Assembly (NCBI GenBank): GCA_029856045.1
Contig: JAHQWG010000035.1
Coordinates: forward strand, 62,001 to 126,000
Source of the DNA: Promethearchaeia archaeon
Lineage (GTDB): Archaea > Asgardarchaeota > Lokiarchaeia > Sigyniarchaeales > SOKP01
Direction: 5' to 3'
DNA length: 64,000 nt
Of this stretch, positions 8,906-52,204 are shown one piece after another (positions within the stretch are counted from its first letter, which is position 1; each line of letters starts with the position of its first letter). A program made the translations under genes and the position numbers. The notes beneath the pieces were generated by a model. That model ran no database searches and was not told where the DNA came from. It saw only the letters and a list, made by a program, of their open reading frames with translations.

Positions 8906-10081
8906 GTGTTTTTAAAAAATGCGATGAAAAATATGAATGAAGTTAATTTAATAAAAAGTGAGCCAGAAGATTTGGGACAAAGCAAGACTCATTATTTTCA
9001 AGTAGATGCAATGAAAGCGTTAATGATATTTTTAGTTATATTCGACCATACAATACCATGGACGATAAAGGGTGATATGGGAGTTGCGTTTTGGGAAAGA
9101 ATTTCAATTCCTGTTTTTTTGGTGATTATGGGTTTTAACATGGGGAATTCATTTAAACAGAAGGGAAATGCCCCATTGAGGGAGTTATATTCGAAGAGTT
9201 ACTTTAAAAATAAAACCTTACGCTATATAGTTCCTTTTCTAATACTATATATAATATCAACTATTGTTGGCTTGGTTCTTTATAATTTCGATTATAATGC
9301 GATGATTGAAACTCAATTATTGCCTCATTTTGGTGAAGTTAATATGATTATGGGAATTCTTCCATTTTGGGGTCCGGGCAATTGGTTCATTCCAATAATT
9401 TTCGAATCTATCTTAATCATGCCATTACTATATAAAGGTTTTTCAAGCAAACCTATTTGGAGTGTATTAACCCTAATTTCATGTTTTGTTATTGAAATTG
9501 TCGCTCAGTTATTTATCTTTTTTTATTTTGGTACACCTCCATTTCCTTCGTGGGAAATATATTATAGTTATCTTTTTGTAATTTGCAGTGTTTTTATATA
9601 TCTTTCCGCTATTGGGTTGGGTTTGTGGTTTTCTATGGGATATGGTATCACACAGAAGAGGAATTTATTTATTTGGATTTTATTTCCACTTAGTGTCATC
9701 TATCTTATAATGTATCAATTTTTTGATTTTCGATTTGACTTTATTAGGGGAGATTACAATTTATTTGTATTTCCTTATTCTGCTTTCTTATTTCTGATTG
9801 GAGTGAAATTATTACCTGAGAAAGCGGAGAGTAAATTTGCAAAAGCAATTGCTGTGATTGGAAAGGCGACGTATCATATCTTATTAGCACAAATCTTATA
9901 TTTTGGGATTGTTGTTGCCATTTGGGGTGACCATTATTGTGCATCAATTATTGGAATTAACCCTTTTAACTACATTGTTTGTTTTACTTATTTACCGATT
10001 AATTGGGTGATTTGTATCCCCCTTGGTGTCTTATGGTATTTTGTAGAAACCAAAATACGAAAGTATCGATTATATAAGTAA
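8906..10081 (+). CDS. Acyltransferase 3 family membrane protein
   Basis: Integral membrane acyltransferase of the PF01757 type, which transfers acyl groups (often O-acetyl) onto sugars or lipids of the cell surface. The N-terminal signature is FQVDAMKALMIFLVIFDHTI, where the His after the first helix corresponds to the catalytic His of the family. About ten hydrophobic helices follow to residue ~385. The annotated start is a GTG; ATGs at 8924 and 8933 are possible and I see no strong ribosome site that decides. No sugar-synthesis genes adjoin it, so the acceptor is unknown. Confidence 0.85.
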   Translation: MFLKNAMKNMNEVNLIKSEPEDLGQSKTHYFQVDAMKALMIFLVIFDHTIPWTIKGDMGVAFWERISIPVFLVIMGFNMGNSFKQKGNAPLRELYSKSYFKNKTLRYIVPFLILYIISTIVGLVLYNFDYNAMIETQLLPHFGEVNMIMGILPFWGPGNWFIPIIFESILIMPLLYKGFSSKPIWSVLTLISCFVIEIVAQLFIFFYFGTPPFPSWEIYYSYLFVICSVFIYLSAIGLGLWFSMGYGITQKRNLFIWILFPLSVIYLIMYQFFDFRFDFIRGDYNLFVFPYSAFLFLIGVKLLPEKAESKFAKAIAVIGKATYHILLAQILYFGIVVAIWGDHYCASIIGINPFNYIVCFTYLPINWVICIPLGVLWYFVETKIRKYRLYK

Positions 10082-19574: not shown

Positions 19575-22106
19575 TCATGCTAATGTATTAAACCCCTCAA
19601 ATTCTTTTATTTTGCTTTTATTTTTTCTTGATTTTGTTGATATTATTATTGATTTACAGATTGTTAAGTTTAATCCTGTTTTATGTCGCAATATATGAGG
19701 ATTTTCAGAAAGAACTTTTGATGCAATATGATATCCAGCATTATACAAAATCCGACCCCTGACTCTTCCCACATTCCTCAACCTTAAAACTAAATCAAAT
19801 AATTCTTCACGAATTCCGTGTGTAATTCGGATTATTAATGTTTCACATAAATTTGCAATTTTATCATCATCTAAATAAGAAGCAATTATTCCAATAAATT
19901 TGATAATTCTGATAACGTTTTCTTTAATTGAAAATAAATCCCCGGCATAAATTTTGAATTCATCCAATATATTTTGTAAAGGTTCTTCATCTGCCCACCA
20001 AATGAGTGGTTTCATCATCTTCATATTTCTGATTCTTGATTCAGATTTTAATACAATAAAAGCACACTTAATTAAACTTTTATAATCATTAACTTCACCG
20101 TTTTCTAACATTTTTCTAATTTTTACACCGCTTGACGGATACAGATATAATTTAACTATTAATTTGCCAAAATTGGAGCAAATTAATCCATTCCTTTCCT
20201 TTAATAAAAGCCCTTTCTCAATTAAATAATCTAAGATATATTCTCCCTTCACACTTTTAGGGATTATATCATTTACGTATTTTATTATTCTTACATCGGT
20301 CTGAGAAACCAAAAATAAAAGAAAACTACTTATGTGATTACAAAAAATGAAGTTACAAGAATTTTGTCCTAGTAAATCTTCTCCAACTCTATTATTAAAA
20401 TTACAACTACATGTAATTCCGCTATCCATATCAAATCTTACATGAAAGACTCCAAAATCTGTTTTAACTATCCCTTCAATTGAATCCTTTTTTATATTTG
20501 TAATTTTTGTTTGAAAGTTAGACCTTTTAATTTTTTCTAAAACTTCTGGATTTGAATGCAATTTCAATATATTCTCTGTTGTTATTTCTTTAATTCGTAA
20601 GAATTGATCTATGGGAATTATTTTATCCTTTATGCAATTCCAATAATATGTTTTTTCAAAAAAATTTTTCAATTTATTAAATGAAATGGATTCTTGCTCA
20701 AAAACCCTTAATAATACTTGTTCTCTTAAAGTTTCAGTTGAATTTATAGCAGATTGAATAGAATTATATATAGGAACCAATCGTTTTCCATCCTCTCCTA
20801 TTTGAAAATATTGATCCTCCACCCATATTTTTTCTTCAATGTTTTTAACAAGTATTATTCCAAAACCTTTAAGATCTAAACCTGGTCTACCAGCTCTGCC
20901 CAGCATTTGGAAAATTTGATTTCTTGAAAAAGGTTCAAAATAAGTAAATCCATTGCCAAAATCTTCATAAAATTTAGAAAAATCGGTAATGTTATCAACA
21001 CTTGTTTGATATCTTTTAAAATCCTTAATAATTACCATTCGAGCTGGCGTGTTTATTCCTGCGGAGAGAGTTGTTGTGGAACAAATAACTTTTAAAATTC
21101 TCTTATTAAAATATTCTTCAATTATTTGTCGTTCTTTTGAGAGAAGTCCTGCATGATGGAAAACCACACCTCCTTTTATGCAGCTCTTTAATTCAGTAAT
21201 TCCACCCTTAATGTTTTCTAATTGCTGTGATAATTTTTTACAGATTGATAGTTCTTGAGGATCCAACTTTTTCTTTATAAAATTTTTAAGGTATAGAGCA
21301 AGCTTCTGCGCTTCCTTCCTTTTATTCACAAATATTATAATTTGGCCTTTTTTCTTTAAAATTTCATTTACATAATGTTTGATGGTTGAATCTTTATTTT
21401 GAGACACTTTGATATCATATTTTAATGGTACTGGCCTTTCATTAGAAATTATTAAGATAAATTCTTGCCCAAGTGACGATAACCAGTTGCAAAAAAATTC
21501 AGGATTTGCTACTGTGGCAGATAAAGCAATAATTTGAGGATTAATCAAAAATTCATTCAATCTAACAATTAATGATTCTAACCGCGGACCTCTGTCTCTC
21601 TCTCCAACACAATGTATTTCATCTATAATAATTGTCGTAATTTCATTAATCCATTTTTCTTCTTTATAATTTCTTAATATTGAGTCCATCTTCTCATATG
21701 TAGTTATAATTATATTAGCTTTTTGAAGTTCCTTATCGTCAATGACAATATCCCCGATTGATAATTCTATTTTTATTCCGTATTTACTGTAATTTTTCGA
21801 GAAATATTGATACTTCTCGGAAGCCAAAGCTTTAAATGGTACTAAGTAAATTGCCTTTCCATCGTTTTTGAAAATATTATTAACAATACACAGTTCACCA
21901 ATCAATGTTTTTCCGCTACCGGAGGGTGCAACAATTAAAAAAGATTTATTAAAATAGAGTCCCTTAATAATTGCTTCTTTTTGGATATCTCGTAAATTAT
22001 AAATGTTATTTTTTAATAAGATTCTAATTATTCTCTCATCGTCTACATATTGATTAAATTCTGAGATTATTTCCTCCGGTGATTTTTCAAAATTAGTCGT
22101 TGTCAT
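19575..22106 (-). CDS. Ski2/Hel308-like SF2 helicase with SWIM zinc site
   Basis: 843-residue superfamily 2 helicase. Walker A is APSGSGKT (60-67), motif II is DEIH (162-165), motif III is ALSATVANP and motif VI is QMLGRAGRPG (near 405-414), with a long PFSRN-type insertion before motif VI as in Hel308/Ski2 proteins. A SWIM-type zinc site is inserted after the winged-helix region (residues ~564-590): CSC followed by C..CNH. The C terminus has a helix-hairpin-helix-like segment (LRNVGRVRGRILYNAGYHIA). Ring-like Ski2 helicases unwind DNA forks or RNA duplexes; the SWIM site suggests extra nucleic-acid or protein contact. ATG start at 22106. Whether it acts on DNA or RNA is not decided by sequence. 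Confidence 0.87.
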   Translation of the reverse strand: MTTTNFEKSPEEIISEFNQYVDDERIIRILLKNNIYNLRDIQKEAIIKGLYFNKSFLIVAPSGSGKTLIGELCIVNNIFKNDGKAIYLVPFKALASEKYQYFSKNYSKYGIKIELSIGDIVIDDKELQKANIIITTYEKMDSILRNYKEEKWINEITTIIIDEIHCVGERDRGPRLESLIVRLNEFLINPQIIALSATVANPEFFCNWLSSLGQEFILIISNERPVPLKYDIKVSQNKDSTIKHYVNEILKKKGQIIIFVNKRKEAQKLALYLKNFIKKKLDPQELSICKKLSQQLENIKGGITELKSCIKGGVVFHHAGLLSKERQIIEEYFNKRILKVICSTTTLSAGINTPARMVIIKDFKRYQTSVDNITDFSKFYEDFGNGFTYFEPFSRNQIFQMLGRAGRPGLDLKGFGIILVKNIEEKIWVEDQYFQIGEDGKRLVPIYNSIQSAINSTETLREQVLLRVFEQESISFNKLKNFFEKTYYWNCIKDKIIPIDQFLRIKEITTENILKLHSNPEVLEKIKRSNFQTKITNIKKDSIEGIVKTDFGVFHVRFDMDSGITCSCNFNNRVGEDLLGQNSCNFIFCNHISSFLLFLVSQTDVRIIKYVNDIIPKSVKGEYILDYLIEKGLLLKERNGLICSNFGKLIVKLYLYPSSGVKIRKMLENGEVNDYKSLIKCAFIVLKSESRIRNMKMMKPLIWWADEEPLQNILDEFKIYAGDLFSIKENVIRIIKFIGIIASYLDDDKIANLCETLIIRITHGIREELFDLVLRLRNVGRVRGRILYNAGYHIASKVLSENPHILRHKTGLNLTICKSIIISTKSRKNKSKIKEFEGFNTLA

Positions 22107-22291: not shown

Positions 22292-22717
22292 ATGGATAAA
22301 AGATTATTTGATCCAAACGACATAAAAATTTCACGCTCTGGAATATGGAAAATAGAAAGAGACCATGGAATTTTATATTTTGGGGTTAATTTAGACAATA
22401 AATCAGATTTTAATATTTATAATCTCAAATTTTTCTTACACAAAATTCCCATAAATATGAAATTAGAGCCAAAACAAATTCATAGAATTCCAAATTTGAA
22501 TCCAAAAACGAATATCTCAGTTTATTTCAGGTTAATTCCCGAAAAAGATTATATTTTTGATACTGTAGAAGGATTTATTTCATATTATGATTTACGAGAA
22601 AAAATATATATTAGAGATATAGAGCCGTATAAGATCGAATTTCAAAGAGAATTATATACACCGAATAAAATTTTCATAAGGAATTTGAATCAAAAAGTTA
22701 AGTCTTCTTCTATTTAA
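22292..22717 (+). CDS. Beta-sandwich (Ig/appendage-like) protein of unknown function
   Basis: 141 residues. The sequence pattern suggests a single beta-sandwich: GILYFGVNLDNKSDFNIYNL has the form seen where an Ig-like domain meets conserved Asn residues, then LKFFLHKIP, LNPKTNISVYFRLIPEKD and a final strand VEGFISYYD. Adaptin-ear and CARDB-like domains share this outline, but I cannot assign a family. No signal peptide, so probably cytosolic. It has its own TATA box and is followed by a hairpin with a T-run, so it is a separate unit from the operon that starts 77 bases downstream. A link with that membrane operon is possible from proximity only. Confidence 0.6.
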   Translation: MDKRLFDPNDIKISRSGIWKIERDHGILYFGVNLDNKSDFNIYNLKFFLHKIPINMKLEPKQIHRIPNLNPKTNISVYFRLIPEKDYIFDTVEGFISYYDLREKIYIRDIEPYKIEFQRELYTPNKIFIRNLNQKVKSSSI

Positions 22718-22766: not shown

Positions 22767-22793
22767 TACTTATTTGAACATCTATTGGATATT

Positions 22794-25175
22794 ATGGATA
22801 ATTACTTATATCAAAGTGATACGACATTAGATACCCCAGATAGAACAGATTATAAATATCATTATAATGAAGCAGAGAAATTGGAGAAAGAAGGAACTCT
22901 AGAAAGCCTTGAGTCCGCTATTGTTCATATTGAGATGGCAATCAATAATTTAAACATGAAAAAAGAAATATTGCCAGAGAAATCATTAGATTCAGAGTTA
23001 AAAAAATTCGCTGAACATCAATTAACGATTAAAACAAATTATCATGAGAAACGAATTAATAAATTGTTAGAAGAGGTAAAAAATGAGGAGAATTCAAAAA
23101 ACTATAAAAAATCGGTAAATATTTATAAGAAAATAAGAGATTCAATGAATTTTTTATATAAATTAGGAGATAAAGGCATAAACATTAATGAAATAAATAA
23201 AGTAAAAGAGAAAATTAGTAAATTAACTAAAAAGATATTAAATGAGAATTTATCAATCTCTTTGAACAGAAAATCAAGTAAAACTGAGCAAAAGCCATAT
23301 TCAGATGAATTTAAAGAAATTAATGCAGAATTTGAGGAAATAAATTTTGATACAAATGATCAAATTCCTTTACAGAATCATGATACTGAAGGAGAAATAA
23401 AAATACCGATTGAGGTTGAATCCAAGGTAATGGATCAAGATGAATTAGCTCAATCAGAAATGATATTATTAGAGGATAATGAAGTGGAGGAGGATAACAT
23501 AGATTTACTTGATAGACCTAACAAAATTAATATCTTAGATCAAATTAAAGTGATTTCAAATATCCCTGAAACTAAAGAATATTGCATGGAAAACGAAATT
23601 TTGGATAAAAAATCAGTCAAATTGTTATTAGCTCAGTTAAGAAAAGCATTAATTGCTAATAATTACCAAATTTTTCCTAATGATGACATTGATTTTCAAG
23701 AATTATATAATAAGATTGATTTTCTTGCAATAAAGATCTTCCATATTAATGAATTTTTAGATATATGCCATATTTTACCACTAAAACTTGCTAAACTATA
23801 CGGTTTATTACTTGTCTCAGAAAAAAAGATCGATTATAATAGCAATAATACAAATTTATCTCAGATTGAGCGTAAAAATCTAATACAGCCACTAAAAGAA
23901 GACATAAATGATGTCGTTCGTACTTTATCAAATGAACTTGGAAATGAAGGCCCGATCGCTAAAAATTTCATTTCGTATATTAATGATGATATATCCTTAG
24001 AAAAAAGCAGAATAGCAAGTAAAGGCTATTTTTATTGTAGAGGCCGAATGCAATACAATTTTATAGTTCAGCCCATTATCATTTCCCAAAATAAAATTGG
24101 ATTTTTAGAGAGGAATATACCATATGCATTCCAACAATCTTCTGATTTATATGTTGTTAATATTAACGATTTAAATGATTTATTAAGCTACTTGGAACAG
24201 AAAAAAAGTTCAATTGAAAAAATTTGTATCAAAAAGCAGCCACTTAATTTATTTATAGATAATAAAATAAAATTAAGCAATGCTTTAAGGTTAATAAGCA
24301 TCTTATTAGGAGTATTTGGGGTTTCTTACTTAATTTCATTGTTTTTAAATGATAAAATTTTTGTCAGTGTGTTTCAAGTATTACAAATTCCTTTTATAAT
24401 AGGGATAATACTTCTATTAGGTTTCTTTATATACATATATAAAAAAAACCAAGATGAGATCATTCAAAAATATAATAGACCATTCGGCTTCGACCATCCG
24501 GACTTTTCTGGACAAAATTTATCTATTGCTTTGAATCAAATTAATCCTCCTGAAAGAGAGCAATTCCTATATGAGATATATAACAAGCGTCCAATTCCTA
24601 TTGAGTTATTGCAAAAGATCCAAAATCCTCACATTTTTTCAGAATTTGTTGAATTATTTGAATCAAACATAGTAAATATCACATTAAATAATGAGAATTT
24701 AACTAGATTAAAACAGTCTTTTAAATATTTTAAACAAAAACATAATTTCTACAAAGCATATTGTATTCTTCGGGCAATTCTTGTGTTGAAATTACGAGAT
24801 TTTATAAGACATCGCTTGAATAAATCAGCCGATGATATCCATAATATCTCTTCCCTGCTAGATATAATATGCGCTGAATGTAATATCCTATTTAACAATA
24901 AGTCGGTAGAAGCGATAAAGAAAATAGAGGGAATTAGAGAACTGAAGGGACTTATAAATCAGAATTTTTTTACTCAAATTGTAAATATAGTATATGATAT
25001 TATCGAAATAATTCAGAAGAATACCAAATTGACTGAAGATCTTAAAGAATTTAATAATTTTCATGAAGAAAATGTTCAGAAATTTGAAGAGAATGCTGTA
25101 TTTGAAAAAAGCATTGGCTATACGGGAGGAGACCCTCCAGAAAATATATTTAAAGATTTCTTAAAGGATGATTAA
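22794..25175 (+). CDS. Operon gene 1: ~793-residue protein with helical repeats and a central pair of membrane helices
   Basis: No family recognised. The N terminus (to ~residue 150) has TPR- or MIT-like helix hairpins (YKYHYNEAEKLEKEGTLESL; EENSKNYKKSVNIYKKIRDS). An acidic linker follows (~165-250). A middle domain includes YCRGRMQYNFIVQPIIIS. Two membrane helices lie near residues 508-530 and 536-558 (LISILLGVFGVSYLISLF; FIIGIILLLGFFIYIY). The ~240-residue C-terminal domain is helical (YKAYCILRAILVLKLRDFIR). ATG 22794 is chosen from promoter spacing. Its stop overlaps the next start by eight bases, so the four genes here are co-translated. Probably part of a membrane complex with the ATPase-like last gene. 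Confidence 0.7.
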   Translation: MDNYLYQSDTTLDTPDRTDYKYHYNEAEKLEKEGTLESLESAIVHIEMAINNLNMKKEILPEKSLDSELKKFAEHQLTIKTNYHEKRINKLLEEVKNEENSKNYKKSVNIYKKIRDSMNFLYKLGDKGININEINKVKEKISKLTKKILNENLSISLNRKSSKTEQKPYSDEFKEINAEFEEINFDTNDQIPLQNHDTEGEIKIPIEVESKVMDQDELAQSEMILLEDNEVEEDNIDLLDRPNKINILDQIKVISNIPETKEYCMENEILDKKSVKLLLAQLRKALIANNYQIFPNDDIDFQELYNKIDFLAIKIFHINEFLDICHILPLKLAKLYGLLLVSEKKIDYNSNNTNLSQIERKNLIQPLKEDINDVVRTLSNELGNEGPIAKNFISYINDDISLEKSRIASKGYFYCRGRMQYNFIVQPIIISQNKIGFLERNIPYAFQQSSDLYVVNINDLNDLLSYLEQKKSSIEKICIKKQPLNLFIDNKIKLSNALRLISILLGVFGVSYLISLFLNDKIFVSVFQVLQIPFIIGIILLLGFFIYIYKKNQDEIIQKYNRPFGFDHPDFSGQNLSIALNQINPPEREQFLYEIYNKRPIPIELLQKIQNPHIFSEFVELFESNIVNITLNNENLTRLKQSFKYFKQKHNFYKAYCILRAILVLKLRDFIRHRLNKSADDIHNISSLLDIICAECNILFNNKSVEAIKKIEGIRELKGLINQNFFTQIVNIVYDIIEIIQKNTKLTEDLKEFNNFHEENVQKFEENAVFEKSIGYTGGDPPENIFKDFLKDD

Positions 25176-25917
25176 AATGATTGAGAATAGTGAGAAGATT
25201 GTAAGATGTTTTAAAATTTTCTATATCATAGGGATCGGACTGGTTATTGCATCCTTTTTCTCTGAGTGGTATTATTACGCTTATATCATCAATAGAATTA
25301 CAATGATTTGGGGATATAACATAATTGCAGGATGGAACTGTATTACTAATAATTCTATAAATTATCCTATATCAATCGAGATTGATCTTATGTTATTTTT
25401 ACTATATGTATTTATTTTTTTTTTAGCATTAATATCATTTATTTATATTTCACTTGAGCGTCCACTTTTTAGCAAGAAAAATTTTTATAATAAGGTAAAA
25501 ACTTTAAATTACATTTTTCCTGTATATCTTGGATTTAACCTTATAATATTGGCATTATTTTTATTTAATTTATTCCAGGCTAATTTCTATTTTCCATTTT
25601 TGAAGCTTTATATTGTTTCCGAAGATTCTGAAACTCTTTACTGGCTTGGTCCGGGATGTATTTTGCATATGATATCTTTTATTTTTATGTTTCCCTTTTC
25701 TGCTATAGTTTTACAGATCCCTCGAAAATTTAAATTAAAGGAGAATAAAATTGAAATTAATAAATTAATTGAAGTAAGTTCTAAAAATATAGATTTTGAG
25801 AAAATTATAATGAAAGAGAGGATAAAGAAAGATAAGACATTCAATCAATCTTCTAACGGAAAACTACAAAAAGGAAAATTTAATCTGGATAATATACGCT
25901 TGGAGAGTGAATCATAA
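25168..25917 (+). CDS. Operon gene 2: four-helix membrane protein
   Basis: 249 residues. Four predicted membrane helices (about residues 12-32, 72-95, 113-135 and 163-183). A loop between helices 1 and 2 is rich in aromatic and Asn residues (WGYNIIAGWNCITNNS), and the ~65-residue cytosolic tail is basic and acidic mixed. ATG at 25168 lies inside the end of gene 1 with AAAGG directly before it; a second ATG at 25177 is possible. Stop is followed at once by the GTG of gene 3. Family not recognised. Tight coupling to its neighbours implies one complex. Confidence 0.7.
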   Translation: MIKMIENSEKIVRCFKIFYIIGIGLVIASFFSEWYYYAYIINRITMIWGYNIIAGWNCITNNSINYPISIEIDLMLFLLYVFIFFLALISFIYISLERPLFSKKNFYNKVKTLNYIFPVYLGFNLIILALFLFNLFQANFYFPFLKLYIVSEDSETLYWLGPGCILHMISFIFMFPFSAIVLQIPRKFKLKENKIEINKLIEVSSKNIDFEKIIMKERIKKDKTFNQSSNGKLQKGKFNLDNIRLESES

Positions 25918-26796
25918 GTGTCAAAATTATTAGAAGCCACTAAATTGTTATTGAATAATCAAAATTACAATGACCTGTATGAATTATATTTGGATTTGAT
26001 TTATAACGCGGTCAATGAAATTGGTGTAAAATTAAATATTACAACACTTAAATCCAACGAAAAAATTTATGATTATATGATAATAATCGATAAATTCCTC
26101 TTTAATAATATCAATATTGTATTATTTGGAGAACATATTCAGAAAGTAGTTAATTTTCACACTATATATGATAAAATTAAAAATACTTCAGAAAACCTAA
26201 AACTAGATCAGTATGATATAAAAGAATTAATTGAAGAATACTATGAACTTAAAGCCCTAGCTGTCCCTAATGTTTTTCAAGATATTGAAAGTTATAAGAC
26301 AAGTAAATATGCCAATTTTCAAACACTCAAAGCGTGTAATTTAGTTTTTGGAAAAAAAAATAAGAATTATGATAATACCAACATTGAAGATGCATTGTAT
26401 GAGATGATCTCCAATCGTATTCAAAATGATTCTGATAAAATCAGGAGAGATTATGTGAAAGGAAAACTAGCTTTTGATAAAAGTTTCAGAAAATTAGCAA
26501 CCTTAGATTCAATCCAAAAAACAATAGAGTCGTCAAAGAAAAAATTCAGCCAAATAGAGATCAGTGGAACCTTATCTGACAATTTAGAATATAAAATCTA
26601 TACATTACGGATGCCGGGATATCTTATATTATCTTTTGGAATTATTTCAGCGATATTATTAGGTTTTATATTTATGGAGATATTTTCAGTGCCAATACTG
26701 GCTGTATCATTATATCCTAGTGCTATATTTTCTGGATTAATTTGTTTTATTTGTTTTTATATCTTTATTAAATTCTTTATTAGAGGAAAAAAATGA
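25918..26796 (+). CDS. Operon gene 3: helical protein with two C-terminal membrane helices
   Basis: 292 residues, all-helical cytosolic part of about 220 residues followed by a helical pair of membrane segments near 229-255 and 260-288 (YLILSFGIISAILLGF; IFSGLICFICFYIF) and a basic end RGKK. The region IIIDKFLFNNINIVLFGEHIQKV has a helix pattern reminiscent of HEPN-like bundles, but no RxxxxH motif is present, so I do not make that call. GTG start directly after gene 2's TAA; its TGA overlaps the next ATG (ATGA). It may present a helical domain at the membrane for the ATPase-like partner. Confidence 0.7.
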   Translation: MSKLLEATKLLLNNQNYNDLYELYLDLIYNAVNEIGVKLNITTLKSNEKIYDYMIIIDKFLFNNINIVLFGEHIQKVVNFHTIYDKIKNTSENLKLDQYDIKELIEEYYELKALAVPNVFQDIESYKTSKYANFQTLKACNLVFGKKNKNYDNTNIEDALYEMISNRIQNDSDKIRRDYVKGKLAFDKSFRKLATLDSIQKTIESSKKKFSQIEISGTLSDNLEYKIYTLRMPGYLILSFGIISAILLGFIFMEIFSVPILAVSLYPSAIFSGLICFICFYIFIKFFIRGKK

Positions 26797-29700
26797 GTAA
26801 AACACCAACAGAAATCACAACAAGTTTGAGTCCTTCAGAGAAAGAGGATTTAAATAGATTTGGAGCCGTTGCTGACATTAACATTTGGAATGAACGACCT
26901 GCATTCAAAGACGTGAATAAATTTTGTATTTATTTAAAAAGTGGTTTTATCATTGGTATATTTTTAATATTTACTTTATTGTTATATTATTGTAGTGGGG
27001 CGTTGATACCTTCGTTCTTATTCCCGAGTTTGATAATTTTCTTTTTTGTGTTAATATTTTTCCAAGATATTTTTTATTATTTTCCTAAATTCAGATATTC
27101 TGGAATTAAAAGAATCGAATTATTTAAGAATTGTTCATTTAGGATTAAAGATAAGAATTCTGATACTTTATTTATTTTCAATAGAAAAGAGAATTTAGTT
27201 ACTGGTATAAAGTTATTTAAAATAGACATATTACCTGAAACGATTGAAGGTAACGTTTATCGATTCTTAAGTTCTCTCGATCGAACTGGAATTCCTTATG
27301 TTTATCAAATAATTCAGACTTCAAATATTCAGTTAATAAAGAGATCTTCAGATTTTTCTGATAAAAAAGAAAAAATGAGAGTTAGGAACACTCTACAAAA
27401 TTCACAGACATCTTTTAATATTAGTTTATTCTTGGCAACTTCTTATTGTAATATGAATAAAATAATTTCTGTTGCATTGGATGAAATACAAAATTCTTTA
27501 AATCGTTATGGTAAAGGTATCATTTCCTCCTTTATTGCCTGTTTTCCTCATCATCATTTAACAGAACTAAAAGGTTTGGAATTAATAAATGGGTTATATA
27601 CTTTATTTTTTAAGACAGAAGTAGAACCAAGAAAAGATAATGAAAAATCATTTAAAAATAGAAATTGGAGATCCACAATAATCAGAATTGTTTATCTATT
27701 TATTTTTATTAGTTTTGAGGCATTCTTATTATTTTCTGTAGGCATTAGTGTTGATTTTAATATATTGGTTAATCTAATTGTTTTGATTGGAATTCTTTTC
27801 ATCTATTGGAGAGAAATATTTAGCTCTTTGACAGATAAATTCATCTTTAGGGATTTTCTTAGATTAAATCTTTTTAACGATTATAAATTTTTTATGAGAG
27901 CTGGTATTCCGGATTCTGTTTTTGTTTGGAATGAAGAATTGAAATTATTGATTGGAATTAAGTTATTTGCAGTTAGAAATATTATGACCCGTGGTTATTG
28001 TAATCCCGATAAGTTTATTAGAGCAATCTCGCCTTTTAAATTGTCATATTCTTATACAACGATCCAGGCTGCTCTTTCTCAATTTGATTTGGAAAAAGAT
28101 TATATGAAATACCTGAAAAGTAAAATCATTTACAGCATGCAGAAATATTATAATAATGAGGAGAAACTTTTAAAATGGCTTTCTATGAGAGCCGGTATTT
28201 GGCGATTTATGTTTCTTATTTCTATAAATTCCTACAAATTTACATCCTATATTTCAACTGAAATTATTGATAATTTAGAGTTGGAATTACAGGAGAGATT
28301 TGAAACCATTCACCTTGCGTTTCAGGAGACATATAGTGATTATGTGCCATTAGTATTAAGAAATCGACGATTAATTTTAGGAATTAAGGTAATTCTTTTA
28401 AAAAACAAGTTTATCCGTCGTGGAGGCACATATATACCCTATTCTCTTATTCAAGGTAAAATTTTAAAAGAAGTTAACAAAATAATGAATGAATTAAAGA
28501 AGGGAATTAAAACTCAAGTGGCTGTGGAGTTTAATACACCCTTAAGCTTAAAAAATGAAATTTTAATTGGTAATACAATAAATACTGAATTTTTTAGGGA
28601 GGAAATACCTTTTGGTTTATTATTTAATCAGATTAATAATTTAATCATTAGTGGTGGAACACACAGGCAAAGAGAAGATATTTGTATGAAAATAATAACG
28701 GAATTGGTTAAAAACAAAATCCCTTCAATAATATTTGATTTTAATGGAAAATATAGTAGGCTTATTGAAATTTTCTCTAAGACACAATTTTATCGTGATT
28801 TCTATTATTTTAAACTGGGTCAAAGTTTTAATATCGAGTTATTGAATTCGGGAATAAAAAATGATCCCAAGAATTTAGAATATTTGGATTATATCTGTGA
28901 AGCGATTGGATGTATAAAAAAATTAAATGACAAAGAAATACAAACGATTAGGGATTTGATATCAAAAGTCCCAATGGATTCTAAATCTATAACTATGGAT
29001 ATGGAAATGGAAGATAAGTGGAAAAAAAATAAAAATTATAATGAAAAATATATTGCTTCAGTATTTAATGATTATACTCAACAAACTAGAAATACAATCA
29101 GTGCAATAGGCATTGTGGAGGAAAATATTAATTCAAATGATTTTCTAAAAGATGATAAAACTGTAATTATTGATTTAAGCATTTTAAGCCCCCCGCTTAA
29201 TATATTTGCAATGTTTGTGTTGATTTCGAGAATAATTCATTATACCCAAGAAGGTAAAGATTATATTCCTAAGTTGTTAGTAATGCCTAACGTCGAATAT
29301 TTTTTCGATAAATTTTATCTTGATAAATTTATTAAGCCTTATACAATTGATAGATTCCTTAATCCATTGAAAGAAAAAGGATTTGGATTTATGTTTTTAG
29401 TCAATGAAGTAAATAAATTACATCCAACATTTTTTGATTATATTCAAAATTTTATGGCTCTAAAAACGGTGCAACCGGCAGATTTAATGGTTTTAAAAAA
29501 TCTTCTTAACTTGCAAGAAATTCAAGGTCAAGGATATTATACAAAATCACGAAAAAATACATATCATATAGATTTTTTGAAACAATTAAGGAATAATAAT
29601 GCCATAGTCTTAAGAGATGATATTGACCAACCCTTTCCCGTTAAAATCGATATTGATTCTCTTGCAGCGATACCTATTCCAAAATATTTGGAATTAAGCG

Positions 29701-30650
29701 AATATATGAAAGAATTTGGGTATAATTTTCAAAAAACCGAAGAGCAAATCTTGAATTCAATTGAAAAAACAATATTTGAAAAAGATTTTCAACAATATCT
29801 CTTTCTTTTAGACGATATTATTAATTTTCTTAGAGCCTTAAATCGAATAGACACAATTGGTAATATTTATGAGTTTAAAATCAAAGAACAACTTTTTAAG
29901 TTTATACATAAAAAATTAGTAGCTAAAGACTACAAGAGAAAACAAATTAGTAAAATTAGAGATGATTTGTTCAATGTATTAATTTCCCATCAATATTTGG
30001 TTGAAAATCACCCAAGAGAAGCTGGAGGCTCTCAATCGATGAGAACATCATATTCTGTAGGACATCAATTTGTGAAAGCATTGGATGATCATTATGATTC
30101 AAAAAAAAAAATCAATGATCAGGTTGATTTACAGCTTATCGAGAAGAGAAAGATTAATGTAAATGAAATTATCCCTAAAAAGGAAGAGATTTTCGAATAT
30201 TTCGTTCCACCAGATAGTGATCAGAATAAGCAACAAGTGATAATAAAAACCAAAAAAAAGATTAGTAATTCAAAAAATATATTGGCAAGTCTTATAGGAG
30301 CACTTTTAGTCAATGGAACTATAAGGGCTGGTAAAGAATTAAGAAGAAATCAATACAAAGATACAATCTTAAAAGTGAGAGATGTTTTATCTAAATTTTT
30401 ATATAAATTATATGATTTTAAATTTGATGAAAAAAGCAATGCAAAAATCCACAGTGATGTACTATTAGAAGCGGTAGATTTTATTGCTGAATCTAATATC
30501 ATTCCTTTCAATAGGCAAGAATTATATGATATTCTCAAAATGATTAATATTATTAAAATTAAAAGTGGAGAGTTAGAAAATACTGCAAAAAATCATTATG
30601 AAATGCTTTATGATTTTACACAAAAAATTTTGATAGGGGTCATGGATTAG
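26793..30650 (+). CDS. Operon gene 4: 1285-residue membrane protein with degenerate HerA/VirB4-like ATPase domain
   Basis: The N-terminal half is an internal duplication. A membrane-helix pair (~50-95) and a domain with LFIFNRKENLVTGIKLFKID (126-145) are followed by a second pair (~296-340) and VFVWNEELKLLIGIKLFAVR (376-395). The ~600-960 region follows the HerA/FtsK/VirB4 order: a strand leading to the P-loop place (LIISGGTHRQRED, ~618), then IPSIIFDFNGKYSRL, a position for Walker B (LLVMPNVEYFFDKF, ~828), then GFGFMFLVNEVNKLHP. The P-loop lacks GKS/T and the Walker B place lacks the Asp-Glu pair, so nucleotide hydrolysis is unlikely. The C-terminal ~300 residues are helical. TAG stop. No known family name can be given. 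Confidence 0.7.
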   Translation: MSKTPTEITTSLSPSEKEDLNRFGAVADINIWNERPAFKDVNKFCIYLKSGFIIGIFLIFTLLLYYCSGALIPSFLFPSLIIFFFVLIFFQDIFYYFPKFRYSGIKRIELFKNCSFRIKDKNSDTLFIFNRKENLVTGIKLFKIDILPETIEGNVYRFLSSLDRTGIPYVYQIIQTSNIQLIKRSSDFSDKKEKMRVRNTLQNSQTSFNISLFLATSYCNMNKIISVALDEIQNSLNRYGKGIISSFIACFPHHHLTELKGLELINGLYTLFFKTEVEPRKDNEKSFKNRNWRSTIIRIVYLFIFISFEAFLLFSVGISVDFNILVNLIVLIGILFIYWREIFSSLTDKFIFRDFLRLNLFNDYKFFMRAGIPDSVFVWNEELKLLIGIKLFAVRNIMTRGYCNPDKFIRAISPFKLSYSYTTIQAALSQFDLEKDYMKYLKSKIIYSMQKYYNNEEKLLKWLSMRAGIWRFMFLISINSYKFTSYISTEIIDNLELELQERFETIHLAFQETYSDYVPLVLRNRRLILGIKVILLKNKFIRRGGTYIPYSLIQGKILKEVNKIMNELKKGIKTQVAVEFNTPLSLKNEILIGNTINTEFFREEIPFGLLFNQINNLIISGGTHRQREDICMKIITELVKNKIPSIIFDFNGKYSRLIEIFSKTQFYRDFYYFKLGQSFNIELLNSGIKNDPKNLEYLDYICEAIGCIKKLNDKEIQTIRDLISKVPMDSKSITMDMEMEDKWKKNKNYNEKYIASVFNDYTQQTRNTISAIGIVEENINSNDFLKDDKTVIIDLSILSPPLNIFAMFVLISRIIHYTQEGKDYIPKLLVMPNVEYFFDKFYLDKFIKPYTIDRFLNPLKEKGFGFMFLVNEVNKLHPTFFDYIQNFMALKTVQPADLMVLKNLLNLQEIQGQGYYTKSRKNTYHIDFLKQLRNNNAIVLRDDIDQPFPVKIDIDSLAAIPIPKYLELSEYMKEFGYNFQKTEEQILNSIEKTIFEKDFQQYLFLLDDIINFLRALNRIDTIGNIYEFKIKEQLFKFIHKKLVAKDYKRKQISKIRDDLFNVLISHQYLVENHPREAGGSQSMRTSYSVGHQFVKALDDHYDSKKKINDQVDLQLIEKRKINVNEIIPKKEEIFEYFVPPDSDQNKQQVIIKTKKKISNSKNILASLIGALLVNGTIRAGKELRRNQYKDTILKVRDVLSKFLYKLYDFKFDEKSNAKIHSDVLLEAVDFIAESNIIPFNRQELYDILKMINIIKIKSGELENTAKNHYEMLYDFTQKILIGVMD

Positions 30651-30744
30651 ATGATCTAATTTTACTACTACTCATAAACGTCAATTAAGGCTACAGAGTC
30701 TAAAAAAAAAGAGATTAATTGAATTTTTATTTTTAAGATTTTTC

Positions 30745-31059
30745 TTATTCTTTTATTTTTTTACCAAGTTTCATTAAAATTGGAAGCAATTTAATCAATT
30801 CCATAGCAGGCGTAGTTTTTATGAATTTAAAAACACCTGGTTTGGCGATTCTCCATACTGCTGTGCCTTGTGCCATTTGTTCTTCGGTATCCGCTTCTGT
30901 TATTGATATGCCCTAAAAATCAGAGGTGCTGATATACCTAGCAATTGTCTTTGTGCCTTCAACTGGATAGAGTTTCTTGTTAAGGATTGTTTGTGCCATC
31001 TCCGATAATTCTGATGGGTCAAAATCTGTATTTAACTCCCAATACGAAATAAATATCAT
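30745..31059 (-). pseudogene. DUF3303-like small protein interrupted by an in-frame TAG
   Basis: A 105-codon reading frame with ATG at 31059 and a strong ribosome site GGTGGT (31068-31073) eight bases upstream. It is coherent along its whole length except for a TAG at codon 49 (30913-30915). Before the TAG it reads MIFISYWELNTDF ... ARYISTSDF; after it GISITEADTEEQMAQGTAVW and a basic C terminus. It resembles small DUF3303-type proteins of archaea, where an aromatic residue would sit at the interrupted place (TGG to TAG needs one change). It is either a freshly inactivated gene or a read-through gene. A 19-base palindrome lies in its promoter region. Confidence 0.65.
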
Positions 31060-31102
31060 TCTTTTTTACCACCTTTTGTATTTTAATTGGATTCAATAAA
31101 GG

Positions 31103-31121
31103 TATAGTTTTCAAAACTATA
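31103..31121. promoter_or_regulatory. Perfect 19-base palindrome TATAGTTTTCAAAACTATA
   Basis: Nine-base arms around a central C. It is centred about 53 bases upstream of the ATG at 31059, where the TATA box or operator of that reverse gene would lie. A dimeric repressor site overlapping the promoter is the natural reading, but no binding protein can be named. Confidence 0.45.
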
Positions 31122-31340
31122 TACCATTTTTTCCTTCTATTTTTGATTATTTATAAATTGCCATTATAAATTATTAATTATTTTAGGAGTATTATCAGTT
31201 ATGGGATGATCTAATTACATTTTAAAAAATTGAGATAAAACCATTAAGTATATTATTATAAATACAAGAAAAGAGTAATTATTGAAAAGAAAATTTCATA
31301 ATAAAAAATCTAAAAAAAAATTTTATTAAAGTGAGAAGTA

Positions 31341-34325: not shown

Positions 34326-34700
34326 ATGAAAGAAACAATAAGAAATGTTAAAAATATATCAGCAGATAAAATAAAAACTCAATTAAATACTTTAGATTTC
34401 ATCGTAGAATCCATAAGAGATATTATTTTTGACACTCAATATTTAGCAATATTAAAAAAGACCATTTTAAGATTAATTAATGGGCAAATTGAACAAAAGG
34501 ACTTAAAAAGATTGATAATTGAGCATGGAGTTAGTTCAGTAGAAGATATTAAAGATTTAATTAAATTATATACTGAAACAGAGATTAAAAGAGTTATTAA
34601 AAGCGTTGAAGCACAAAAAGATAAAATTAAAAAATATAATCAATTGCTTTCAAAAATTGCTCCTAGAGTAGAAAAAATTTATAATAAATTGAGTTTGTAA
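34326..34700 (+). CDS. Helical 124-residue protein upstream of the Hef helicase
   Basis: Nearly all helix with heptad-like spacing: KIKTQLNTLDFIVESIRDII, a middle segment DLKRLIIEHGVSSVEDIKDL, and a long C-terminal helix rich in Lys (KSVEAQKDKIKKYNQLLSKI). Probably a coiled-coil or helical bundle. ATG start. Only seven bases separate its stop from the GTG of the Hef-type helicase, so the two are in one transcript. A helicase accessory role is a reasonable inference. No family recognised. Confidence 0.65.
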   Translation: MKETIRNVKNISADKIKTQLNTLDFIVESIRDIIFDTQYLAILKKTILRLINGQIEQKDLKRLIIEHGVSSVEDIKDLIKLYTETEIKRVIKSVEAQKDKIKKYNQLLSKIAPRVEKIYNKLSL

Positions 34701-34707
34701 AGAGTGA

Positions 34708-36792
34708 GTGAAAATTAGCAATTCAAGGACCTTAAAAAATGAAGAGAATAATCTATTAAATTTCAATTTTCTTAAAAACGAGAAAATTGACCATAGAGAG
34801 TATCAAATAAATATTGCTAAGAAATGTTTTGGTAATAATTCCTTAGTTGTGATTCCAACTGGGTTAGGAAAAACGATAATATCTATAATTATTGCAGCTC
34901 ATACTCTTGAGAATTCTCCACCACATAGTAAAGTGGTAATTTTAGCACCAACACGCCCCCTGATTAACCAACATCATGAAAACTTTTTAAAATTCATGAA
35001 TATTCCTAGTGAAAAATTCAGTATTTTAACTGGACAGATCGAGCCACATAAAAGGACACACGAATTTATGAATAATCAGGTCTTATTTTATACTCCTCAA
35101 ACATTAAGGAATGACATCTTAAATAACAGATATTCTTTAATGAATGTTTGTTTAGTTATATTCGATGAGGCCCATCGAGCCCAAGGAGACTATGCTTATT
35201 GTCAAATTGCAGATGAATATATTGAACATAATAATGATGGAATTATACTTGGTCTTACTGCCTCTCCAGGGTCAAACAGAGAAAAAATCTCAGTTCTTTG
35301 TAAAAACTTGCATATTCCCGATTCTAATATTTTCCTTAGAACAAGAGATGATAAAGATGTTAAAGATTATATCAAACCAATGAAAATTTGGAAAGTTGGT
35401 GTTGATATGACAGATTTAATGAGATTAGTTCATTCCGCTTTAAAAAAAATGATTCAAGAAAGATTAAATTACCTAAATTCTCTTGGATTTATTGATTCTA
35501 ATAAAGAACAATTGGAAAGTATCTATAGAAAAGATTTAATAAAATTAAATCGAGATCTTTTAGAAATAATTAATGGAGATGGAAATAAAACGGGTGCTTA
35601 TAAAGCATTATCAATTAATGCACAAATGCTTAGGTTGTTTCATATGTTAAGCTTAGTTGAGAGTCAAGGACTTGATTCATTATTATCTTATTTAAAATCT
35701 ATGAAAAATCAATCTTCACAAAAAAATGCCTCTAAAGCGTTAATTATTTTAGCGAATGATTATGAAATCAATAAAATCTTCAATGAACTTCAGCAATATA
35801 ATGAATTAGATGAATTAATATTAATCCATCCAAAATTCAATATTTGTAAAGAAATAATTTTAAAGGAGCTTAAAGCAAATCCTAATGCAAGAATTTTAGT
35901 ATTTTCAAAATTAAGAGATTCAGTAGCAAATATCTCTTCTAAATTAAAAAAAAATAGTTTGATAAAACCAAAAAGATTTGTAGGGCAAGCAACTAAATCA
36001 ACTAATGATAAAGGTCTTTCTCAGAAAAAGCAAATTGAGATATTAAATAAGTTTAAGAATGGAGAATATAACGTGTTGGTATCAACTAACGTAGCTGAAG
36101 AAGGACTTGATATCACAGAATGTGATCTTGTCATATTTTATGATGTTGTTGCTTCGGAAATTAGATTTATACAGAGAAAAGGGAGAACAGCTAGAATTCG
36201 TGAGGGTAAAGTAATTATTCTTTATTGTAGAGGAACTTCAGATGAAATATATTTACGTATTTCTTTAAATAGACTTAAAAGAATGTATGAATCATTAAAT
36301 AACACGAAAAAGATTCCTGAAATTAATAAACAAAAAAATAAAATTAAGCGTATAAAAAAATCACAGAATGAAAATTTAGATAATTATCTTTCTCCTATTG
36401 TAATATTAAGTAAAATTATTCCTTTATTTTTTGGAATTCGACAATTCTACTCAGAATCCGGTATTAAATTTCAGGTATCCTCTAATGATTATCATATTCA
36501 AATTCAGAATCAAATAGGTATTCACATCTTTGAACCTAGAGATTTAATACAACAAGATGCAAATAATCAGTTTAAAAATTTTATTGAAAAATTTAAGAAA
36601 AGTTTTAAAATCATTATAATTATAGCCCAATTTCTTGATTTTACCGAGATTTTTAAAAATGAAAAGAAGTATATCAAAAGAAAATTATTAAAGATTTCTC
36701 AAAAATATGAAATTCAAATTATTCCTATTGATAATAAAGATGAATTATTTCTTTTATTGAGAGGATTTTTCAAAAAGAGAATAAAGAAATGA
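34708..36792 (+). CDS. hef: Hef/FANCM-type helicase (helicase half only)
   Basis: 694-residue SF2 helicase of the Hef/FANCM/Mph1 class, which remodels stalled forks and branched DNA. Walker A is PTGLGKT (50-56), motif II is DEAH (153-156), motif III is LTASPG, and the C-terminal RecA-like domain has STNVAEEGLDI and FIQRKGRTAR. The helical insertion between the two domains (residues ~235-345) is typical of Hef. The C-terminal ~160 residues are Lys-rich and contain a degenerate globular part, without an XPF nuclease. In euryarchaea Hef is fused to that nuclease; here the nuclease is a separate gene at ~41864-42589. GTG start; an ATT two codons later is possible. Stop overlaps the DUF1922 gene. 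Confidence 0.9.
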   Translation: MKISNSRTLKNEENNLLNFNFLKNEKIDHREYQINIAKKCFGNNSLVVIPTGLGKTIISIIIAAHTLENSPPHSKVVILAPTRPLINQHHENFLKFMNIPSEKFSILTGQIEPHKRTHEFMNNQVLFYTPQTLRNDILNNRYSLMNVCLVIFDEAHRAQGDYAYCQIADEYIEHNNDGIILGLTASPGSNREKISVLCKNLHIPDSNIFLRTRDDKDVKDYIKPMKIWKVGVDMTDLMRLVHSALKKMIQERLNYLNSLGFIDSNKEQLESIYRKDLIKLNRDLLEIINGDGNKTGAYKALSINAQMLRLFHMLSLVESQGLDSLLSYLKSMKNQSSQKNASKALIILANDYEINKIFNELQQYNELDELILIHPKFNICKEIILKELKANPNARILVFSKLRDSVANISSKLKKNSLIKPKRFVGQATKSTNDKGLSQKKQIEILNKFKNGEYNVLVSTNVAEEGLDITECDLVIFYDVVASEIRFIQRKGRTARIREGKVIILYCRGTSDEIYLRISLNRLKRMYESLNNTKKIPEINKQKNKIKRIKKSQNENLDNYLSPIVILSKIIPLFFGIRQFYSESGIKFQVSSNDYHIQIQNQIGIHIFEPRDLIQQDANNQFKNFIEKFKKSFKIIIIIAQFLDFTEIFKNEKKYIKRKLLKISQKYEIQIIPIDNKDELFLLLRGFFKKRIKK

Positions 36793-37325
36793 TTGAAAAA
36801 AATGCCCAAATAAGAAATTATATTGTATTTCCTTGTAGGAAGTGCTATCAATATACTTATGCTCATGTGGATCAAAAAGGAAAAAAATGCCCCCGTTGTG
36901 GACAAAATCACAAAATTTCAGAAATCTCTGGAGAAATTGTCAATAATTTGAAAGAAGCAAATCTATTGGTAAGAAAAAAACAATATGAATTTGATAAAAA
37001 AAGTGGATTTAAAAAACTCCACTTATCATCTTTAACATCTGGTTTTACCATACCAGGATCTGATAAATCTACAATTAATTTCCAGCAATTTATAGAAAAG
37101 AATAGAAAAGATAATAAAAATTCATATAACAAATTTATATTTTGGCTGAAACAATTAAAAAGTAATTTTTCTACAATTCCAGAAAATATTTTTAATTTAT
37201 TTTTTATAAATAAGGGTTTTAAGAGTTCAGAAATTAGACAATTTACAAAATTGGCTTTAAAAAACAAAAAAATTGATCAAAATTTAAAAATTAATGATGT
37301 TAAATATTATCAAATAGTTGTTTAG
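36789..37325 (+). CDS. DUF1922-like zinc-ribbon protein with helical C-terminal domain
   Basis: 178 residues. The N-terminal ~60 residues match the archaeal DUF1922 zinc ribbon: FPCRKCYQYTYAHVDQKGKK then CPRCGQ, followed by a strand and helix with LKEANLLVRKKQ. The Cys pairs CxxC and CxxC should bind zinc. The remaining ~110 residues are basic and helical, ending in a winged-helix-like segment (SSEIRQFTKLALKNKKIDQ). ATG overlaps the Hef stop by four bases, so it is coupled with the helicase, and a DNA-repair or RNA-binding role beside it is likely but unproven. Confidence 0.72.
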   Translation: MIEKNAQIRNYIVFPCRKCYQYTYAHVDQKGKKCPRCGQNHKISEISGEIVNNLKEANLLVRKKQYEFDKKSGFKKLHLSSLTSGFTIPGSDKSTINFQQFIEKNRKDNKNSYNKFIFWLKQLKSNFSTIPENIFNLFFINKGFKSSEIRQFTKLALKNKKIDQNLKINDVKYYQIVV

Positions 37326-50980: not shown

Positions 50981-51025
50981 TCTTCATTGTATAATTATTT
51001 CAAAATTTAAGAAATTTTGATAATA

Positions 51026-52204
51026 ATGACAGAATTAAAATTAGTGAAAGGCATTCAAGCGAGACATATTAAGATTTTTACAGAGAACGGTATTACTACA
51101 GCAGAAGCTCTTGCTATGTCTGGTTTTAAGAGTATTACTGCAATGGAAGGTATTGGAGAAGCAACTTCTAAAAAACTTATTTGGAATGCCAGAAGTGCTT
51201 TGGGAATGAGTAGTTTTAAAACAATATCAGAGTTCCAAGAAAATCATGAATATATTAGCACAGGTTCTTTAAATTTTAATGCAATTTTAGGAGGTGGTAT
51301 AGAAACAGGTTTTATAACAGAAGTTTTTGGTCCATTTAAATCCGGAAAGACCAATTTAGCGCACACTTTGTGTGTTACTACACAATTACCAAAAGGAAAA
51401 GGTGGATTAAGTGGTGCTGTGATTTATATTGATACCGAAAATACATTTTCGAAAGAAAAAATCAAACGAATTACCAAGAGATTTGGTCTTAAACCCGAAA
51501 ATGTACTCCCGCACATTTTTCATGCGAGAATTTATAGTTCCGATCATCAAGCTCAAATGATTTTGGAAGCGGAGAAACTCGTAAAAGAAAAAAATGTTAG
51601 AATAATAATTTTAGATAGTTTAATGGCGCTTCTTCGAGCAGAATACATCGGAATTGGAATGCTTCCACAACGACAAGCTACATTAAATCAAATGATTCAT
51701 GCTCTTTCCAGAATTGCAGAGAGTTATAATATAGCGATCCTTGTAACAAATCAGGTTGCCCAACAAATAAAGGGAATGTTCAGCGGTATTGATGCAATTG
51801 GAGGGAATATCGTCGCTCATGGTTGCCAGATTCGGGTGATGTTTAAGACAAAAGGGTTCGCCGCGAATAGTTCTCTTGAAAGAAAGGCAATTATTGTTGA
51901 TGCACCTGATTTACCTCCTGAGGAATGCCAGTTTTATATAACTCCAGCAGGGATCTCAGATACAGAGAAAATAGATTTTTCAAGTATGGAAGAAAATATA
52001 GAACCCAAATTTATTATGGCTAATGATGAATTTACCTTAGAAAAAATTAGAGGAATAGGAAAAAACATAATGGAGAAATTGGAACAAATAGGAATTACTA
52101 CTACTGAGCAATTGAAAGATACAAATCCCGAAGATCTTGCTAAAGATTTGCCAGGTATTTCAAGTAAAAAAGTAAAAGAATGGATTGAACAAATTCCTGC
52201 TTAG
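51026..52204 (+). CDS. radA: RadA recombinase with an additional C-terminal helix-hairpin-helix
   Basis: Archaeal Rad51/RadA strand-exchange recombinase, 392 residues from ATG 51026 (the TTG at 51017 is less likely). Residues 1-60 form the N-terminal HhH domain (ITAMEGIGEATSKKLI). Walker A is GPFKSGKT (102-109), with Pro-Phe-Lys replacing the usual Glu-Phe-Gly. The Walker B region is IIILDSLMALLRAEYIG, and the L2 region and IDTENTFSKEKI are recognisable. After the core, residues ~335-392 add a second HhH unit (RGIGKNIMEKLEQIGITTTE and LPGISSKKVKEWI), not found in standard RadA. T-run terminator after the stop. Confidence 0.93.
   Translation: MTELKLVKGIQARHIKIFTENGITTAEALAMSGFKSITAMEGIGEATSKKLIWNARSALGMSSFKTISEFQENHEYISTGSLNFNAILGGGIETGFITEVFGPFKSGKTNLAHTLCVTTQLPKGKGGLSGAVIYIDTENTFSKEKIKRITKRFGLKPENVLPHIFHARIYSSDHQAQMILEAEKLVKEKNVRIIILDSLMALLRAEYIGIGMLPQRQATLNQMIHALSRIAESYNIAILVTNQVAQQIKGMFSGIDAIGGNIVAHGCQIRVMFKTKGFAANSSLERKAIIVDAPDLPPEECQFYITPAGISDTEKIDFSSMEENIEPKFIMANDEFTLEKIRGIGKNIMEKLEQIGITTTEQLKDTNPEDLAKDLPGISSKKVKEWIEQIPA

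Follow-up and report, generated by a model that had tools for sequence, protein, structure and literature searches.

The window analysed here, a stretch of 64,000 nucleotides from a genome of Promethearchaeia archaeon (assembly GCA_029856045.1, contig JAHQWG010000035.1, positions 62,001 to 126,000 of the forward strand), carries a four-gene membrane operon, A-B-C-D, whose last gene encodes a relative of the type IV secretion system protein VirB4 with a lost ATP site. We consider the chances about even that the operon encodes a VirB4-like platform in the membrane, dead as an ATPase, that serves recombination by handling DNA and might be a machine for DNA import, and the four-gene complex may represent an undescribed machine that takes in or tethers DNA at the cell membrane. 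To our knowledge, the mode of DNA exchange in the archaeal relatives of eukaryotes is not known, and no description of the A-B-C-D locus was found in the open-licence literature searched. The operon is a concrete candidate, open to testing, for a role in DNA uptake, in exchange between cells or in recombination at the membrane of Asgard archaea, and its D protein would be an unusual example of a pseudo-ATPase of the translocase type that a whole phylum has kept.

The four genes form a tight + strand operon, with an 8-base overlap, a junction of 0 bases and a 4-base overlap between them, and hydropathy predicts 2, 4, 2 and 4 membrane helices in A, B, C and D, respectively. Gene ends and hydropathy thus agree with what an earlier reading, made from the letters alone (the sequence-only reading), had described; the same reading recognised no known family among the four products, and a Pfam search of A, B, C and D likewise yielded zero families above cut-off. 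All four genes are under purifying selection, with ratios of nonsynonymous to synonymous substitution rates (dN/dS), calculated against a 90%-identical relative (locus L051), of 0.23 for A, 0.31 for B, 0.26 for C and 0.19 for D, indicating that all of them are maintained proteins.

Gene D (26793..30650, + strand) encodes the 1285-residue VirB4/HerA-like pseudo-ATPase. The AlphaFold model of its residues 20-1200 (mean predicted local distance difference test score, pLDDT, 75.6; predicted template-modelling score, pTM, 0.52) has the RecA-like order of strands and helices at residues ~590-890, so that a RecA-like core is present in residues 600-960, the region on which the sequence-only reading had staked its proposal of a HerA/VirB4-type core. 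By profile and AlphaFold/Foldseek, the core extends over residues 560-960 (28470..29672, +). Its profile matched HerA proteins in the PDB (best E 1.2e-6), and the top 12 PDB matches of the Foldseek search were all VirB4/TrwK entries of the R388 type IV secretion system (E 9e-17 to 2e-13), aligned over ~940-1000 columns, followed by Sulfolobus HerA (4e-11). Two modules precede the core, at residues 20-290 (26850..27662, +) and 291-560 (27663..28472, +), each consisting of a membrane hairpin and a domain resembling the VirB4 N-terminal domain (NTD); hhalign identifies them as tandem copies of one module (probability 99, E 6e-18). Both modules match a gene that, in distant Asgard lineages, stands on its own immediately ahead of the core gene (E ~1e-12), and D of the Loki branch therefore looks like the product of fusing and duplicating parts that are encoded apart elsewhere. 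As modelled, the fold of D is nearest to VirB4, rather than to FtsK or plain HerA, which narrows the HerA/FtsK/VirB4 kinship suggested initially: the type of core stands, the nearest relative is VirB4, and the doubled N-terminal module is a further element.

The window's D does not match DUF87 (PF01935), and 9 of 31 members match it at E up to 1 (best 0.00018), short of the gathering score. The VirB4 profile TIGR00929 is absent from the families matched by D members. The nearest NCBIfam model is CedD (NF053655), reached with E-values of up to 6e-12 in some homologues, the best D matches scoring 17-45 bits against a cut-off of 600 bits.

The RecA-like core of D is probably no longer able to hold ATP. 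Alignment on intact relatives (GxxxxGK[S/T]) sets the P-loop place at residues 621-628 (28653..28676, +), which read GGTHRQRE, with R627 where the catalytic Lys would be. At the Walker B place, residues 830-833 are VMPN, PN at 832-833 (29286..29291, +) standing for D-E; both sites are degenerate, as the sequence-only reading had noticed. Orthologues of D keeping GKT/S and DE, which that reading had set against itself, did not come to light: GK[S/T] occurs in 0 of the 71 D orthologues with a readable site, and the distant homologue L048 retains the Walker B motif LDECH (LDE). Arg occupies the Lys position in 64 of the 71; among the others, a single sequence contains a Lys in this region (motif NGFDGMKE), and Val or Leu is found in the remainder. 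Walker B of the Loki branch mostly reads P-N/H/Y, with acidic residues kept in several distant lineages. The GRKF segment, which we take to hold the trans-acting arginine of HerA, reads xKGFG in D and is kept in the HerA proteins of the same genome. A tree that included 12 intact Asgard ATPases places all 33 D sequences (the badly cropped L057 being disregarded) in one clade without an active member, with a support of 0.76, consistent with the ATP site having been lost once and early. A 1262-residue paralogue with an intact site (L144, GATGTGKT) shares its genome (G204) with a D orthologue. D is best read as a catalytically dead member of the VirB4/HerA clade, apparently fixed as such early in Asgard archaea. 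The earlier proposal of a lost nucleotide site holds across the whole family; the suggestion that the complex still senses nucleotide finds no support, the Loki branch being devoid of both Walker motifs.

D is phylum-wide in Asgard archaea and, as far as searched, Asgard-specific. A single-sequence search found homologues in 49 of 97 related genomes, and a profile search (E 0.001) in 153 of the 228 genomes of the phylum, with some of the weakest matches bound to be ordinary HerA proteins. C, present in 40 of 117 relatives, was confined in the searches to the window's own family, save for one Hodarchaeum contig, so that the earlier proposal of an Asgard-specific system holds for D at the level of the phylum and for C within the Loki family. 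The four-gene order, which the sequence-only reading had proposed to look for, does recur in relatives: B and C occur together at 26 D loci in the order A-B-C-D (genes of relatives being simple open reading frame, ORF, calls), and Hel308 is nearby in 22 of these. The exceptional contig, in the record of Hodarchaeum mangrovi FT_5_011, carries a complete Loki-type A-B-C-D-Hel308 locus (L178, on the same contig as L123) and may reflect a transfer or a binning error. In genome G004, only N- and C-terminal fragments of the operonic D (L042, G004:C5, ~9400-9830) are left; purifying selection still acts on A, B and C, and an unlinked D paralogue, 52% identical, is kept elsewhere in the genome (L052). 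Searches of phages, plasmids and viral contigs returned zero relatives of D, so that an origin of the operon from a virus or plasmid is not supported.

Among the functions initially considered, namely, secretion, DNA handling and membrane remodelling, it is DNA handling that the recurrent linkage to recombination genes favours. In the window, a gene for a Hel308-type DNA helicase (19575..22106, - strand; Pfam DEAD 6.4e-31, Helicase_dom4_arc 7.2e-8) is transcribed divergently from A-B-C-D, and Hel308 lies within ~10 ORFs of D in families f1, f7, f8, f12, f15, f17 and f18. Rad51-type genes are found near D in f2, f7, f8, f12, f13, f15 and f17 (KaiC-like proteins may account for the weaker of these), an XPD-like gene in f8 and, by tag, in f13, and FEN/XPG-like genes adjoin D in f4 and f7. 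The f8 locus brings many of these together: a Rad51-type gene (HHH_5 and Rad51, 2e-48), a zinc-ribbon-like gene, an unknown gene, an XPD-like helicase, a short NTD-module protein and a small protein lead up to D, which is followed by Hel308, a membrane-hairpin protein, a RadB/KaiC-like ATPase, a membrane protein and another Rad51-type gene. Because Hel308 is one among roughly three thousand genes, its repeated closeness to D across families is not a matter of chance; shared ancestry of the locus contributes to it.

Several further genes were seen. A Rad51/RadA-type recombinase (E 2.5e-73) with a C-terminal HHH_5 is encoded at 51017-52201 of the window, ~20 kb from the operon, and the interval 34326-37325 holds a 124-residue protein, with relatives that are often encoded after D, followed by a Hef-like superfamily 2 (SF2) helicase (694 residues) and a zinc-ribbon protein. 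At L038 and L039, a Hef-like helicase lies upstream of A, and Hel308 was not seen there. In f15 and f17 (L049, L050, L132-L134), a large M28-peptidase-like gene precedes the D genes.

The putative machine may be pictured as follows. D would retain the build of VirB4, a VirB3-like membrane hairpin with a VirB4-type N-terminal domain, repeated in tandem, and, joined with its membrane partners A, B and C, would most likely form a platform or pore for DNA handling in the membrane, comparable to the VirB4/CedB/CedD stage of the machineries for conjugation and for Ced DNA import. DNA would be handed to the recombination enzymes encoded alongside, Hel308 here and Rad51-like, XPD-like and FEN-like enzymes in other Asgard lineages, and other ATPases would have to do the work, whether these enzymes themselves or a HerA/TraD-type translocase that is active. 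The fold, the duplicated module, the lost ATP site, the conservation and the gene linkage come out of the computations; ring assembly of D, its contact with DNA, the direction of transport and the source of energy are what we infer. More tentatively, it is possible that the loci belong to an Asgard-wide chromosomal DNA-exchange machine, in which an early-frozen pseudo-ATPase platform would be coupled to a dedicated recombination module (Rad51-type, Hel308, XPD-like and FEN-like) and which the Loki branch would have rebuilt with four subunits through duplication and fusion of the NTD module.

Candidates for the active HerA-like partner that the sequence-only reading had looked for elsewhere in the genome do exist and are unlinked to the operon. 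Just downstream of a paralogous D, a HerA/TraD-type ATPase of 631-690 residues with an intact Walker A is found in six loci (L044, L068, L131, L137, L139 and L140), adjoining D or one gene off. The window's genome encodes a homologue of this ATPase (1032 residues, GLSGTGKT, E 2.5e-65), on another contig and with no D beside it, as well as five DUF87 proteins. Such an active ATPase, or Hel308 together with the recombinases, could supply the energy. A second HerA-type ATPase (L128, 243-3002, G000:C27) has an intact P-loop, GFTGTGKS, and a hydrophobic start resembling a membrane helix. At L193 (9244-15733) of the window's genome, an active HerA/TraD-type ATPase lies beside long proteins with acidic repeats, of which one contains a TFIIB repeat (E 1.4e-14); the ATPase and acidic-repeat genes, with a paralogous D in relatives, look like an integrative element.

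The other three subunits offer fewer clues. Gene A (22794..25175, +; 793 residues from ATG, with an alternative TTG start at 22785 possible) encodes a helical N-terminus, a conserved alpha/beta domain (~272-477), a membrane hairpin (~483-560) and a helical tail. An HhH domain, often DNA-binding, is present in 18 of 22 Loki-family A proteins. Some profile matches to A at distant loci were discarded as merely the HhH domain common to Rad51-type proteins. Gene B (25168..25917, +; 249 residues) represents an orphan family with 4 membrane helices and a conserved C-terminal segment, DLDKLIAxEE, and gene C (25918..26796, +; 292 residues) encodes a cytosolic helical domain with a C-terminal membrane hairpin. 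In A and C, a weak Ilm1/DUF2207_C signal falls short of cut-offs and is probably due to membrane helices, and hhalign found A, B and C unrelated to the membrane proteins of the f8 locus. Between Hel308 and A lies gene X (22292..22717, +; 141 residues), a protein without a family, with homologues seen only in the same-genus loci L042 and L051. Downstream of D, the interval ~30680-31340, up to a 144-residue gene, contains zero ORFs of >=60 residues; L051 and L042 have a minus-strand gene of 104-122 residues at this spot, and the window's copy looks degenerate. Promoter and terminator matches, the former scored with a bacterial promoter model, were at chance level.

Several observations weigh against a DNA-handling platform. 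D is also found at loci without A-B-C or Hel308, the latter being absent from 13 of 13 D-only loci with enough flank, and the support for the D clade is only 0.76. The Foldseek template-modelling scores (TM-scores) are modest, 0.24-0.27 by query, with large root-mean-square deviations, because the domain arrangement differs; it is the series of domains that matches, not the overall arrangement. The window's own A lacks the HhH domain, the PDB structure search with the A model gave zero matches for its conserved domain at E <= 0.001, no VirB6/CedA channel or pilin was recognised, and B and C are orphans by profile search. Nearby DNA genes, moreover, could serve chromosomal repair without any DNA crossing the membrane. 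The last point leads to a somewhat doubtful alternative, in which A-B-C-D is a membrane anchor for chromosomal repair that tethers Hel308, Rad51-type recombinases and DNA ends without passing DNA through the membrane. Every linked gene is a general repair enzyme, the channel and pilin are missing from what was recognised, and a dead translocase could act as a clamp or scaffold; yet the closest folds and profiles, VirB4 and CedD, are those of dedicated DNA-translocation proteins, and the doubled VirB3/VirB4-NTD-like module is a feature of translocation platforms.

We regard as improbable a membrane-remodelling or protein-secretion complex with a borrowed VirB4-like scaffold, for which the recombination linkage would be ancestral gene order. 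VirB4 machines can transport proteins too, the window's A, B and C have no DNA-protein fold, and in f15 and f17 an M28 peptidase gene is part of the locus. However, the linkage to Hel308 or Rad51-type genes persists in distant families despite varied orientation and gene content, for which inert gene order is an inadequate explanation. The two remaining possibilities were rejected as unlikely. It is very improbable that D still works as an ATPase through an unusual P-loop with a conserved Arg in place of Lys: the Arg in 64 of 71 orthologues, the acidic Walker B of many distant relatives and the strong purifying selection on the core (dN/dS 0.19) would suit it, but the P-loop glycines and Ser/Thr are gone as well, Val or Leu takes the Lys position in some lineages, the Loki Walker B is mostly P-N/H/Y, and GRKF is replaced by xKGFG. 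Scarcely credible is a decaying remnant of a mobile or conjugative element; paralogous D genes do look mobile, being multi-copy, sometimes broken and located beside the active ATPase and giant acidic-repeat proteins, and the operonic D is lost in G004, but A-B-C-D is conserved beside Hel308 at dN/dS of 0.19-0.31, and phage, plasmid and viral-contig relatives were not found.

Three known systems come closest to D. With HerA, both of HerA-NurA and of defence systems, D shares a sequence-profile relation and a fold match, but HerA retains GK[S/T], D-E and GRKF, and separate intact HerA proteins are encoded in the window's genome. VirB4 (TrwK of R388) is built from the same elements in the same order, namely, a membrane hairpin, a VirB4-type N-terminal domain and a RecA-like core. 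Unlike VirB4, D has no Walker A and, in the Loki branch, no Walker B either, its N-terminal module is doubled, a sequence-level match to the VirB4 profile is absent, and it sits among recombination genes, with no VirB6 or VirB2 genes recognised nearby. CedD and CedB of the Sulfolobales Ced system are, similarly to D, membrane-bound archaeal proteins of the HerA/VirB4 type with VirB4-like NTDs, and CedD is the nearest NCBIfam model; D differs in scoring far under the cut-off (45 versus 600 bits) and in having no intact ATP site, and no relative of CedA or CedA1 was recognised. Ced, a domesticated type IV secretion system (PMC9905601), imports DNA that serves DNA repair in Sulfolobales, and CedD of Saccharolobus is induced by DNA damage and required for DNA import (PMC11868833). 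By analogy, the A-B-C-D complex is best read either as a putative apparatus for DNA import or exchange like Ced or as a candidate membrane anchor for recombination.

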